DNA of 64,000 bases from Clostridiales bacterium (GTDB lineage Bacteria; Bacillota; Clostridia; Christensenellales; Aristaeellaceae): positions 1-64,000 of the forward strand of contig DUQZ01000024.1 in the NCBI GenBank assembly GCA_012837525.1. Direction: 5' to 3'. Each line of letters opens with the position of its first letter. Within the stretch, counting starts at the first letter, position 1. Below are positions 606 to 5,731 of the stretch, one piece after another. A program made the translations under genes and the position numbers. A model generated the notes under the pieces. It made no database searches. It had not been told where the DNA came from and saw nothing but the letters and a program-made list of their open reading frames with translations.

Positions 606-690
606 TGGTGCGGTCGACGAGACTTGAACTCGTACGGTTTTCACCACACGCCCCTCAAACGTGCGCGTATGCCAGTTCCGCCACGACCGC
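606..690 (-). tRNA. tRNA-Leu, anticodon GAG
   Basis: The minus strand folds as a class II tRNA of 85 nt including an encoded CCA. The acceptor GCGGTCG pairs with CGACCGC. The anticodon loop TTGAGGG carries GAG after U33, its stem closing with a U-G pair. A long variable arm (GGT-GAAA-ACC) follows, and the T arm is ACGAG-TTCAAGT-CTCGT. The long variable arm, the D-arm start GCGGAACTGGC and the A discriminator fit leucine. It has its own consensus promoter and terminator and is a single-gene unit. Confidence 0.96.
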
Positions 691-753: not shown

Positions 754-2184
754 CTACTGCGTGTTTTGCGCGGGTTCCTCCTGATTCATAGCCTCTTTAG
801 CCCCGGATTCTGTCTCCTCCGGCTCGGGCAGGCGCACCAATTGGTCAAAGGCGCGCACCACCAGGTAGGAATAGGGCGCGTGATCGGCCAGCACCATATC
901 CGGCCCAACCAGGGAGTGGGTCAAAAACAGGGTTTTGAGGATCATCCGCGCCAGCGCCACCGTGCCGAAGCGCTCGATAAGGGCATGCACCTTCTCCCCC
1001 ATCTTGTGGATGTCCTCCGGGTTGGCTTCTTTGCCTGCCGCGTCCTGATAATACTGCTGAAAACCCATGATGGTAAACCGCAGCAGCCTGCGCGTCCATT
1101 CCTCTGTTAAGGCGGGCAGGTCATACACGGTATGGTCCACAAACACAGCCAGGGCCGAGGCAACCGCCTTGGCCGGCTGGGGGCGCAGGGCATCCAAAAG
1201 AGCAAGCGCGAACAGCAGGCCCTGCTGGGTATCCCGCAGGCTGCCAAGCAACGCCAGGGTTTCAATAAACAGGGGGTTGTCGCGGTATTCGCCGTAGCAG
1301 ACCTCCCGGAACACATCATCGCCACGCAACAGGTAGCTGACGCCCAGGTGATCGCGCAGCCCCACCCTGGGGATTAGATCATCCGCGACCAAGAAGTGCG
1401 TCAGCGGGCAGAGCAGCTCATCCTGGGGCAGGTCAATCGCGACAGAGGGCGAGGCGAAGCCAAAGCCCAGCAGGTGCTGCTTTTGCACGCCGGCTTTGAG
1501 TTTTTGATGCGTCCATATCTGCAACACGGCCGCGCCCTGGCTGTGCCCTGCTGCGACCACCCGAAAGGCGCTGTCGGGCTGTTTGCAGGCTTCCAGCACA
1601 TCCTTCAGCGTCAATTCTTCCATGTCCAGCGCTTGCGCGGCGCTTGGAAAGCGGATCTCCGCCTCCTTGCTTTCAAACTGGGCAGCCAGGTCAAAAAAAC
1701 CCTCGTGGAAGTGCCCTTCCCGCTGCAGACGCATGTTGCTGGCCCAGTCCTGCGGCCTTCTGCCGGTGCCCATGAACCCGATGGCGATGGTGAACCGCTT
1801 GGGCGCGTGCTCCCGGATCATCACCACAGCCTTGCCGGTGTGCAGCTGGATATCCGGCTGCAGGTAACTTTTGATGTCCGTAATGGGGTTGGTGAGGTTG
1901 GTCAGCCCGCGGGCCAGTTTGGGCAGGATGGCGTTGAAGATGCCCTGCTGCCACGCGCCCACGTCCTCCCGCAGGCGCACGCCGGAAATCAAACGGCTGT
2001 CCACCTGGATGACCATGTCCGTCCAGCCGGCCGACAGCCAGGGGCCTGCCTCAAAGTCGTAGGACAGCTGGGCCAGCTCCAGTCCAAAGCGCGCGGCTTC
2101 GCGGTGCAGCTGCCCCTGGTTGACCTGATCATACCAGCTGGTATCCCGTAAATCGGTCTTGGTGTAATTCCCAAAATGCGGCAT
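754..2184 (-). CDS. Lipase-like alpha/beta hydrolase (class 3 lipase type)
   Basis: A 476-residue protein starting at the ATG at 2184, preceded by AGGAGGGATT; a longer open frame to 2403 would run through the promoter at 2201-2229 and is not used. The central block RVVAAGHSQGAAVLQIW holds the GxSxG nucleophile elbow (GHSQG) typical of class 3 lipases and related hydrolases. There is no signal peptide or membrane segment, so it is probably cytoplasmic. The N-terminal part (HFGNYTKTDLRDTSWYDQ) resembles the start of other Clostridia lipase-family proteins. The C-terminus is a Glu/Gln-rich tail. The substrate is unknown; the catalytic Asp and His cannot be assigned by eye. Confidence 0.75.
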   Translation of the reverse strand: MPHFGNYTKTDLRDTSWYDQVNQGQLHREAARFGLELAQLSYDFEAGPWLSAGWTDMVIQVDSRLISGVRLREDVGAWQQGIFNAILPKLARGLTNLTNPITDIKSYLQPDIQLHTGKAVVMIREHAPKRFTIAIGFMGTGRRPQDWASNMRLQREGHFHEGFFDLAAQFESKEAEIRFPSAAQALDMEELTLKDVLEACKQPDSAFRVVAAGHSQGAAVLQIWTHQKLKAGVQKQHLLGFGFASPSVAIDLPQDELLCPLTHFLVADDLIPRVGLRDHLGVSYLLRGDDVFREVCYGEYRDNPLFIETLALLGSLRDTQQGLLFALALLDALRPQPAKAVASALAVFVDHTVYDLPALTEEWTRRLLRFTIMGFQQYYQDAAGKEANPEDIHKMGEKVHALIERFGTVALARMILKTLFLTHSLVGPDMVLADHAPYSYLVVRAFDQLVRLPEPEETESGAKEAMNQEEPAQNTQ

Positions 2185-2321: not shown

Positions 2322-2350
2322 TTGCATTCGTGCAAACGCCGCCGTATAAT
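2322..2350 (+). promoter_or_regulatory. Promoter of the structured RNA
   Basis: TTGCAT (2322-2327), a 17-base spacer and a perfect TATAAT (2345-2350). The predicted start is about 2357, exactly where the closing helix of the RNA below begins. Confidence 0.85.
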
Positions 2351-2356
2351 GACCAT

Positions 2357-2570
2357 GGTTGAGCCGCGGTCTGTGGTTGAAAGCCGATGCCAGTCGCAGG
2401 CAAAACGGCCCACGTAAGCCGGCGAAACGCCGGTGAGCATGGTGCGATCTAGATGTCAGTCCGGCCGGGCGCAAGCCCGAGAGAGCGGCGTAGGGCGCAA
2501 ACGCGCTGAGCAAAACTCCAGCCGGCGGGTGTGGGGGCAAAGACCAGGTCAGCGGGGTTCAACCAATTTT
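2357..2570 (+). ncRNA. Structured noncoding RNA of about 210 nt (class not identified)
   Basis: Base 2357 lies 7 bases past a strong -10 box. The 5' end GGTTGA (2357-2362) pairs with TCAACC (2559-2564), and the helix extends with CCGC (2364-2367) against GCGG (2552-2555) and GGTC (2368-2371) against GACC (2542-2545). Inside are GC-rich hairpins: CCGGCG/CGCCGG (2419-2433, loop AAA), GGGC-GCAA-GCCC (2467-2478, a GNRA tetraloop) and GCGC/GCGC (2495-2506). Six T residues (2567-2572) follow the closing helix. No good open frame covers it on either strand. It stands before a zinc-ribbon gene, so it may be a free RNA or a 5' leader. A raiA-type RNA is one family to test; that is a guess from size, closed architecture and taxon. 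Confidence 0.65.
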
Positions 2571-2589
2571 TTGAGGGGGTTTCCAATTC

Positions 2590-2865
2590 ATGTATCAGGA
2601 CAAAACCATGGTGTGCCGTGATTGCGGCAGCGAATTTCAGTTTACCGCTGGCGAGCAGGAGTTTTACGCGGAAAAGGGTTTCCAGAACGAGCCCACCCGC
2701 TGCCAGGAGTGCCGCAGGACCCGCAAGGCCAACCGCAACAATGGCCCGCGCGAAATGCACGACGCCATCTGCGCCCAGTGCGGCGCGGACACGCAGGTGC
2801 CTTTCCTGCCCCGGGATGATCGTCCCGTCTACTGCAGCGACTGCTTCGCCCAGATGCGCGGATAA
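2590..2865 (+). CDS. Small zinc-ribbon protein
   Basis: A 91-residue protein with four CxxC knuckles: C9/C12 and C38/C41 form one ribbon, C61/C64 and C82/C85 a second. The first half (VCRDCGSEFQFTAGEQEFY) matches the small zinc-ribbon family found across Firmicutes (zf-trcl type); the second half is the shorter CxxC-x17-CxxC module often attached to it. A GAGGGGG ribosome site precedes the ATG. Both halves are intact, so two zinc ions are expected. The function of the family is not known; binding to RNA or ribosomes is only inferred from the basic stretch RRTRKANRNN between the ribbons and from the structured RNA just upstream. Confidence 0.85.
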   Translation: MYQDKTMVCRDCGSEFQFTAGEQEFYAEKGFQNEPTRCQECRRTRKANRNNGPREMHDAICAQCGADTQVPFLPRDDRPVYCSDCFAQMRG

Positions 2866-3181: not shown

Positions 3182-5731
3182 ATGAAAACGCGATTGATGA
3201 CGCTGTTGGCGTCAGCCCTGATACTGGGTCTCATCCTCACCACCCTGCCCACAGATGGTTTTGCGGAGACCGGCTTCACCGTCAGCCTGCCCGCGCAGAT
3301 ACGGCCTTACCGGAATGAATCCATCGCCCTAGATCTCCCGGCTGATGGCATCTTGACCATTCACGCCCAGGTGCAGGGCAAACGCCTTTTGATTGTAAAA
3401 GAGCAGCCTGTGCAAAAGGGCAGTTTAAGCATTCCTTTTGCCGGTCTGTCCATCAATGACGAAGCGCTGCTGCGGGGTGAAGCGCGATTGCAGGCGCAGC
3501 TTGTTACTGGGGACAAAACACTGGAAGCGACAGCCGCCTTCCGTGTGATGCAGCCAGCCGCGGGCATCAGCTATGTGCTTCTGTCCCGGGACAGCATGTC
3601 CATTCACGATGAGGAAAGCCTGTATGCCGACCATCAGTTAAGCAGGGCTGGCACCCTGATTGTCAGCCTGTACCGGGAGGGTGAGGATGACAAGCCCCTC
3701 TTTCGGCGCTCATTTACACGCAAGGATACCCTGCCCCACGCCTACCGCTGGGACAAAACCATCGCCGGCAAGCCCGCGCCCGCCGGGAACTACTATTTCC
3801 TGTTTGAGGCGCAGGGCTCCCAGCAGGAGCCCATCAGGCGGCCTTTTATTTTGACGGAGGAACCCGCCAACCCGCCGGGCATTGAGGTAACTAAAAAAGG
3901 CCATTTCCTGCCCGAGAGCATGGATGACGCCAGCGTCTGGGCGGCCATGATGGCGCCCATCACCGTGATTGACATCGGCGCCTCCCAGCACCAGCGGGTG
4001 TACGCCGAGCCCAGCACAAAATCCAAGGTGGTGGGCATGATGCATGGGCAGTCCGCCGGGGTGGAGATTTTGGAAGTTGGCCCCGCCGGCTACCTCAAAA
4101 TCCGCGCCGCGCGGCATGGCGACGGCAAATGGATGATCGGCTACATCCCCGACAACCGCTTAAAAACCATTACCCCCTATGACCGCTATGGCCTGCTGAT
4201 TGACAAGAACGCGCAGACCATCAGCGTGTATGAGCGGGGCAAAAAACTGGGCACGCTGAAGATCAGCACAGGTATTTACGTGCCCCCGGGCGTCAACTCC
4301 TTTGACACGGTGCCCGGCGCCTTTTTGACCAAGAGCCGTGTTGCGGAGTTCCCCAGTGAGGGCATCCGCTATGAGTACGCCATGCGCATTGACGGCGGCA
4401 ACCTGCTGCACGGCTCCGGCTACCGCATCATCAACGGCCAGCGCGATTACAGCTTCCAGACGGAGCGTTTGGGGCAGATCGCGTCCCACGGCTGTGTGCG
4501 CGTGCAGCATGACTTAAACGAACAGGATTTGAACGCCTGGTGGCTGTACGCCAACCTGCCGCGCAATACCAAGCTGCTGGTGCTGCCGTCTGAAGACAAC
4601 CTGCGCCTGGAAGGCGAGCAAGCGCCTGAAACGGTGGAGGACGCGCTGATGGAGGACGCCATCACGCATGTGACTGAAGAAGAGCCGGAAATGGAAACAG
4701 AACCCGAAAACACCAGTGAGCCTGCCGCCAATGAGCAGGCTCCTTCCTTCCAGGTGGTGGCTGCGGCGGACCTGGGCGCGCCTGTACCGGAGGGCAGCAC
4801 CCTGATTACCATGACCTTTGGCGGGGATTGCGTGCTGGGCAGCGAGGAGCACAGCAAAAACAAGCCCGAATCCTTCCACAGCGTCATTGAACAGCACGGC
4901 ATGGCCTGGCCCTTCTCCGGGCTTTCTGACATCCTGCAGGCGGATGACATCAGCATGGTGAATCTGGAAAACGTGCTGCAGGATACCCGCAAGGGCTTTA
5001 ACCAACGGCTGCACAACTTCCGCGGGCCCAGCGAATTTGCCAACATTTTAAAACTGGGCGGCATTGAGCTGGTGAACATCGCCAACAACCACTTTGTGGA
5101 CTACGGCCAGGACGGCAAGAACAGCACCCGCAACGCGCTGCGCGCGGCGGGCGTCCCATTTGCCGGTTACAGCGCGCTGTATGTGCACGAGAAGGACGGC
5201 ATCAAGATTGGCTTTGGCGGCATTCGGGAGACCGTCTTCCACCAAAACCACAAGCGCGTCGCGGATGAGATTGATGAGCTCAAGCGCATGGGCGCGGATT
5301 ATATAGTCTATACCTGCCACTTTGGCATTGAGTATGAAACCAGCCACAATGAGATTCAGACCATGATCGCCCGCGCGGCGATTGATGCCGGCGCCAACCT
5401 GGTGATCGGGCACCACACCCACGTGGTGCAGGGGATTGAGCAATACAAGGGCGGCCTGATCTTCTACTCCCTGGGCAACCTGGTGTTTGGCGGCAACCTG
5501 GAGCTGTCCACCTTTGACGGGCTGATGGCGCAGATTGGCCTGGTGTATGAAGGCAAACAGCTGAAGGAAACCCGTGTGCAGTTCATCCCCGTCATCACCT
5601 CCGGCATCCGCCCGCACAATGATTTCCGCCCTGTGGCGGCAGAAGGGGAGGACAAGGCACGCATCCTGGCCGCCATAAACGCGGACAGCGACCAGGACTA
5701 CCCGGACCGGTTTATCATCTCCGCGCGATAG
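3182..5731 (+). CDS. Secreted L,D-transpeptidase (YkuD) fused to a CapA-type metallophosphoesterase-like domain
   Basis: The 849-residue protein starts with a Sec signal peptide (about residues 1-29, ending TDGFAE). An Ig/FlgD-like region follows to about 235, then an SH3-like segment (about 258-330). The YkuD domain (about 338-480) carries the catalytic motif SHGCVRV at 435-441, with C438 as nucleophile, and should crosslink peptidoglycan or transfer proteins to it. An acidic Glu/Pro linker (about 485-525) leads to a CapA/PGA_cap domain (about 535-849) with FGGDCVLG, NIANNHFVDYG and GHHTHVVQG, the metal-binding signature known from capsule and polyglutamate synthesis proteins. The protein probably acts outside the membrane. 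No other wall genes are adjacent. Confidence 0.88.
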   Translation: MKTRLMTLLASALILGLILTTLPTDGFAETGFTVSLPAQIRPYRNESIALDLPADGILTIHAQVQGKRLLIVKEQPVQKGSLSIPFAGLSINDEALLRGEARLQAQLVTGDKTLEATAAFRVMQPAAGISYVLLSRDSMSIHDEESLYADHQLSRAGTLIVSLYREGEDDKPLFRRSFTRKDTLPHAYRWDKTIAGKPAPAGNYYFLFEAQGSQQEPIRRPFILTEEPANPPGIEVTKKGHFLPESMDDASVWAAMMAPITVIDIGASQHQRVYAEPSTKSKVVGMMHGQSAGVEILEVGPAGYLKIRAARHGDGKWMIGYIPDNRLKTITPYDRYGLLIDKNAQTISVYERGKKLGTLKISTGIYVPPGVNSFDTVPGAFLTKSRVAEFPSEGIRYEYAMRIDGGNLLHGSGYRIINGQRDYSFQTERLGQIASHGCVRVQHDLNEQDLNAWWLYANLPRNTKLLVLPSEDNLRLEGEQAPETVEDALMEDAITHVTEEEPEMETEPENTSEPAANEQAPSFQVVAAADLGAPVPEGSTLITMTFGGDCVLGSEEHSKNKPESFHSVIEQHGMAWPFSGLSDILQADDISMVNLENVLQDTRKGFNQRLHNFRGPSEFANILKLGGIELVNIANNHFVDYGQDGKNSTRNALRAAGVPFAGYSALYVHEKDGIKIGFGGIRETVFHQNHKRVADEIDELKRMGADYIVYTCHFGIEYETSHNEIQTMIARAAIDAGANLVIGHHTHVVQGIEQYKGGLIFYSLGNLVFGGNLELSTFDGLMAQIGLVYEGKQLKETRVQFIPVITSGIRPHNDFRPVAAEGEDKARILAAINADSDQDYPDRFIISAR

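Follow-up and report, generated by a model that had tools for sequence, protein, structure and literature searches.

The window, by which we mean the whole 64,000-nucleotide stretch of DNA analysed here (contig DUQZ01000024.1 of the Clostridiales bacterium assembly GCA_012837525.1), carries a raiA (ModT) RNA in the intergenic region between a divergently oriented gene and a small zinc-finger protein gene that starts 25 bases 3' of the RNA. A tRNA-Leu gene lies on the far side of the divergent gene, and a large gene for a protein with L,D-transpeptidase and PGA_cap domains follows the zinc-finger gene (Table 1).

Table 1. Features of the raiA RNA locus, in window coordinates, with the strand and the evidence for each
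Feature	Position	Strand	Basis
tRNA-Leu (gag)	606-690	-	
Divergent gene	757-2184	-	marginal lipase class 3 match, just below the Pfam cut-off
-35 hexamer TTGCAT	2322-2327	+	sequence; layout in relatives
-10 hexamer TATAAT	2345-2350	+	sequence; layout in relatives
raiA (ModT) RNA including closing helix P1	2357-2564	+	Rfam match 2360-2561, alignment, covariation
P1, 5' strand (partner 2553-2564)	2357-2368	+	covariation helices 1-2
P3 hairpin GCC/GGC; loop AGTCGCA (2392-2398) is one strand of pk-1	2389-2401	+	alignment/covariation
P5 hairpin	2418-2434	+	covariation helix 7, double changes at 6/6 pairs
pk-1, second strand TGCGATC	2443-2449	+	covariation helix 5
P6-P7-P8 domain, longer "variant 2" form	2461-2525	+	covariation helices 8-11
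P7 hairpin, GCAA loop	2466-2479	+	within P6-P7-P8 domain
P1, 3' strand	2553-2564	+	covariation
T6 run; not conserved, and no terminator stem found	2567-2572	+	terminator scan, relatives
GAGGGGGT, probable Shine-Dalgarno for the zinc-finger gene	2573-2580	+	sequence; G-rich form recurs in RNA-linked relatives
Zinc-finger gene (91 aa; two treble-clef domains)	2590-2865	+	profile matches: zf_Tbcl (PF13451), zf_Tbcl_2 (PF23477) / TIGR04272
849-aa protein, L,D-transpeptidase (YkuD) and PGA_cap domains	3182-5731		profile matches

To identify the RNA, we scanned the whole window against Rfam 15, which returned RF03072 (raiA RNA) as the sole match, on the plus strand, with 165 bits (gathering score 101.3 bits) and an E-value of 1.5e-41, covering the model end to end (model positions 1-209). 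The initial annotation had guessed at a raiA-type RNA and proposed an Infernal search against Rfam including this family; the guess is borne out at full length, and its other suggestion, that the class could be new, is excluded by the match. It had also described the interior as having no coding capacity, a loose wording given that short open reading frames overlap the region, with no reason to call any of them a gene. The element is thus a clear copy of an already described and widespread noncoding RNA, one more among thousands known, and the less familiar part is its arrangement with the zinc-finger gene, about 25 bases away, which is usual in the source lineage. The source genome has a single copy of the RNA, which was found in 10/11 genomes of the genus, 85/100 of the family, 38/101 of the order (37 of them above the cut-off) and 26/148 of the class, counts that are not independent of descent.

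To assess the fold, we aligned 50 raiA RNAs and took the structure from the Rfam model, adding P3 and pk-1 explicitly. Standard pairs filled 92% of paired cells, vs 77% after shuffling and at most 43% when partners were slid, a share that leans towards the family model because the structure was taken from it; double changes were seen at 34 of the 52 pairs, far above both controls. P1, P5, P6, P7 and pk-1 covary. The comparison with relatives that the initial annotation had called for therefore gave strong covariation, and the individual elements that it had pointed out are present. The helix between GGTTGA (2357-2362) and TCAACC (2559-2564) belongs to P1, in which the window has standard pairs at 11 of 12 positions; in relatives, double changes occur at all 12. 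The GNRA-type loop is the GCAA capping P7. The pseudoknot pk-1, described previously (PMC11751092), joins the P3 loop with the loop between P5 and P6; it is paired in 94% of cells, with double changes at two pairs, while the window has A and C at its outermost positions, 2392 and 2449. The second pseudoknot of the family, pk-2, consists of only two pairs. Variant classes including the longer P6-P7-P8 form have been reported (PMC11751092), as have cryo-EM structures of raiA RNA (PMC11751092, PMC12286853). The folding energy of the region was just 2.4 standard deviations below that of shuffled sequences (z -2.4), which taken alone is weak evidence and leaves some room for helices arising by chance in a GC-rich gap with no functional RNA. 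The covariance-model match over the full length, together with covariation exceeding every shuffle and slide, is decisive on this point, and we rejected chance helices as having a negligible probability. Separately, one sequence 5' of a zinc-finger gene in another genome (L195, G080:C9) was missed by the covariance model and appears to be a short and degenerate raiA RNA without the P6-P8 domain.

The promoter claimed at 2322-2350 is present, with a perfect -10 hexamer, a 17-nt spacer and a -35 hexamer matching the consensus at 3 of 6 positions, the reason why a strict promoter scan missed the site. The layout is kept in the raiA loci of relatives: TATAAT was found upstream in 108 of 123 distinct loci, and TTG at a 17-nt spacer in 89 of those loci. 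At the sequence level the RNA thus has its own SigA-type promoter, as described for ModT in four clostridia (PMC11706538). In C. difficile its transcription depends on one SigA promoter. Judging by the distance to the -10 hexamer, this sigma-A type promoter would start transcription at about 2357, at the first base of P1. On the 3' side, the closing helix is followed by AA, six T, the probable Shine-Dalgarno GAGGGGGT and the ATG at 2590. The T-run had been read as a poly-T tail, which implies a terminator, a reading that the data did not uphold: a terminator scan found no intrinsic terminator on the plus strand that would give a discrete 3' end, local folding 3' of the RNA found no terminator hairpin beating shuffles, and the T-run is absent in most relatives, with even four T missing at 76 of 132 loci. 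Since the 25 bases between helix and ATG fit no other promoter, except one inside the RNA, the promoter of the RNA probably also reads the zinc-finger gene, and co-transcription is more likely than termination at the poly-T. Read-through would probably yield one transcript combining RNA and mRNA, out of which the stable raiA RNA would be retained.

The downstream protein matches zf_Tbcl and zf_Tbcl_2/TIGR04272, both far above their own cut-offs, and an alignment of 33 relatives contains 36 invariant positions, among them eight cysteines; searches by sequence gave no convincing relative of solved structure. To determine how often this gene follows the RNA, we counted downstream genes at raiA loci with enough downstream sequence. 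The zinc-finger gene lay directly 3' of the RNA at 9/10 loci of the genus, 18/29 of the family, 18/27 of the order and 9/23 of the class. Conversely, a pattern search over the 80 nearest zinc-finger homologues found placed raiA RNA immediately before 53 of them, and cmscan added 3. RNA and gene share a probable transcript in ten of the order's families and in some families of other orders. In five loci of one family from another order (L072, L073, L081, L085, L087), about 125 nt separate the RNA core from the zinc-finger gene, with a possible further structured element in between. In the literature searched we found no mention of the raiA motif together with zinc, while the work of Soares and colleagues on synteny may already list the pairing.

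The frequent adjacency of RNA and gene and their tight spacing in the window, with neither a terminator nor a sigma-70 promoter found in between, are also compatible with a cis-acting, riboswitch-like leader that controls the adjacent zinc-finger gene in the source lineage. Rfam types RF03072 as a cis-regulatory riboswitch, and paralogous zinc-finger genes have different leaders, including a group in which CCUCC can pair with the Shine-Dalgarno. We searched the start of the zinc-finger gene for an expression platform by local folding and terminator scanning, and found neither a plus-strand terminator nor stable sequestration of the Shine-Dalgarno, the folding around it being no better than shuffles. 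By eye, Shine-Dalgarno sequences tended towards a GGGGG type in RNA-linked zinc-finger genes and GAGGT in unlinked ones. Against a leader, the gene is missing from that place at 11 of the 29 family loci, and one congener (L003, 1700-1800) keeps both the promoter and the raiA RNA while lacking the zinc-finger gene, the next gene of the neighbourhood following directly. Because the RNA persists there, it is not merely a leader of the zinc-finger gene, and this arrangement speaks for a role of its own. ModT acts in trans from its SigA promoter in C. difficile, where it affects the growth transition, sporulation and c-di-GMP (PMC11706538), and complementation in trans works in both C. difficile and C. 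acetobutylicum. The riboswitch label is thus contradicted by published genetics, and we consider control in cis quite unlikely.

By analogy with those other clostridia, the raiA RNA here, with the compact pseudoknotted fold known for the family (P1 to P8 and pk-1), most likely acts in trans as cells pass from growth into stationary phase. L003 agrees with action in trans; the riboswitch type in Rfam, the spacing to the gene and the lack of a detected terminator count against this reading. What the RNA is, the conservation of its fold, its promoter and the synteny are direct observations, whereas the start site, co-transcription and function in trans are inferred for the source species. As a whole, a raiA (ModT) RNA gene with a SigA promoter, a probable joint transcript and a role in trans is very probably the best explanation of the locus.

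Compared with known raiA RNA, the copy in the window shares the full-length model match, P1 to P8, pk-1 and the strictly conserved blocks, as well as the SigA-type promoter, the intergenic position and the size of about 210 nt. It differs in that no terminator was detected at its 3' end and that its downstream gene is the zinc-finger gene, whereas raiA is common in that place elsewhere and C. difficile has an antiterminator gene there. The only match to a ribosome hibernation factor in the genome lies on another contig (C23). A downstream raiA gene is typical of the RNA and not defining, since it is reported for 66% of loci. Abundance and stability in exponential phase are further features to be expected of a raiA RNA.

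The neighbour of the RNA offers a concrete candidate partner or target. We compared the occurrence of the two across genomes. In the order, the zinc-finger gene was present in 33/38 genomes with raiA RNA vs 7/63 others (counts not independent of descent) and, counted by family, in 12/13 families with the RNA vs 3/20 others; in 26 of the 33 genomes with both, drawn from ten families, the two were adjacent. Such a pattern would fit a functional pair in which the zinc-finger protein, small and with eight invariant cysteines, binds or matures the raiA RNA, and chemical probing has given first hints of a possible association of ModT with protein (PMC11706538). A possible parallel, by analogy only, is the ribonucleoprotein of OLE RNA and protein OapA (PMC11706538). 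OLE RNA belongs to a different family but is likewise a large structured RNA of bacteria, and the zinc-finger protein would be the candidate counterpart of OapA. In the class, however, co-occurrence was absent (13/26 genomes with raiA RNA vs 56/122 others had the gene), although the RNA and gene were adjacent, by listed positions, in 10 of the 13 genomes having both. In 20 genomes in which raiA RNA does not precede the zinc-finger gene, none was found elsewhere either, so the protein must have work without it. Because the association within the order vanished across the class, we lowered our estimate of a partnership and hold it to be unlikely.

Zinc-finger genes that do not adjoin raiA RNA are often preceded by tRNA-like elements or by leaders of about 110-140 nt. 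The leaders (L183-L186, L191, L192 and L196-L251, with the exception of L252) stand directly before unlinked zf_Tbcl genes, have their own TGTACA/TATAAT-like promoter, and contain a 5' GCCC and a 3' GGGC strand around an inner conserved CCTCC, which in the leaders of group A can pair with the Shine-Dalgarno. Across 20 loci they had no Rfam match at an E-value of 0.1, and consensus folding gave little covariation; as the covariation is thin, we do not claim a new RNA class. It is conceivable, if rather doubtful, that structured RNAs recurrently accompany the zf_Tbcl/TIGR04272 gene, with raiA RNA in many lineages and the tRNA-like elements or undescribed leaders elsewhere, and that the encoded protein may bind raiA RNA or be regulated by the preceding RNA. 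The tRNA-like elements are degenerate and lie directly before the zinc-finger gene (L152 2908-2971, L154, L157, L159, L163, L165, L168, L171). ARAGORN called none of them a tRNA, and the Rfam tRNA model matched weakly at L157 and L171 only. Several of these elements sit after a sigma-factor-like gene.
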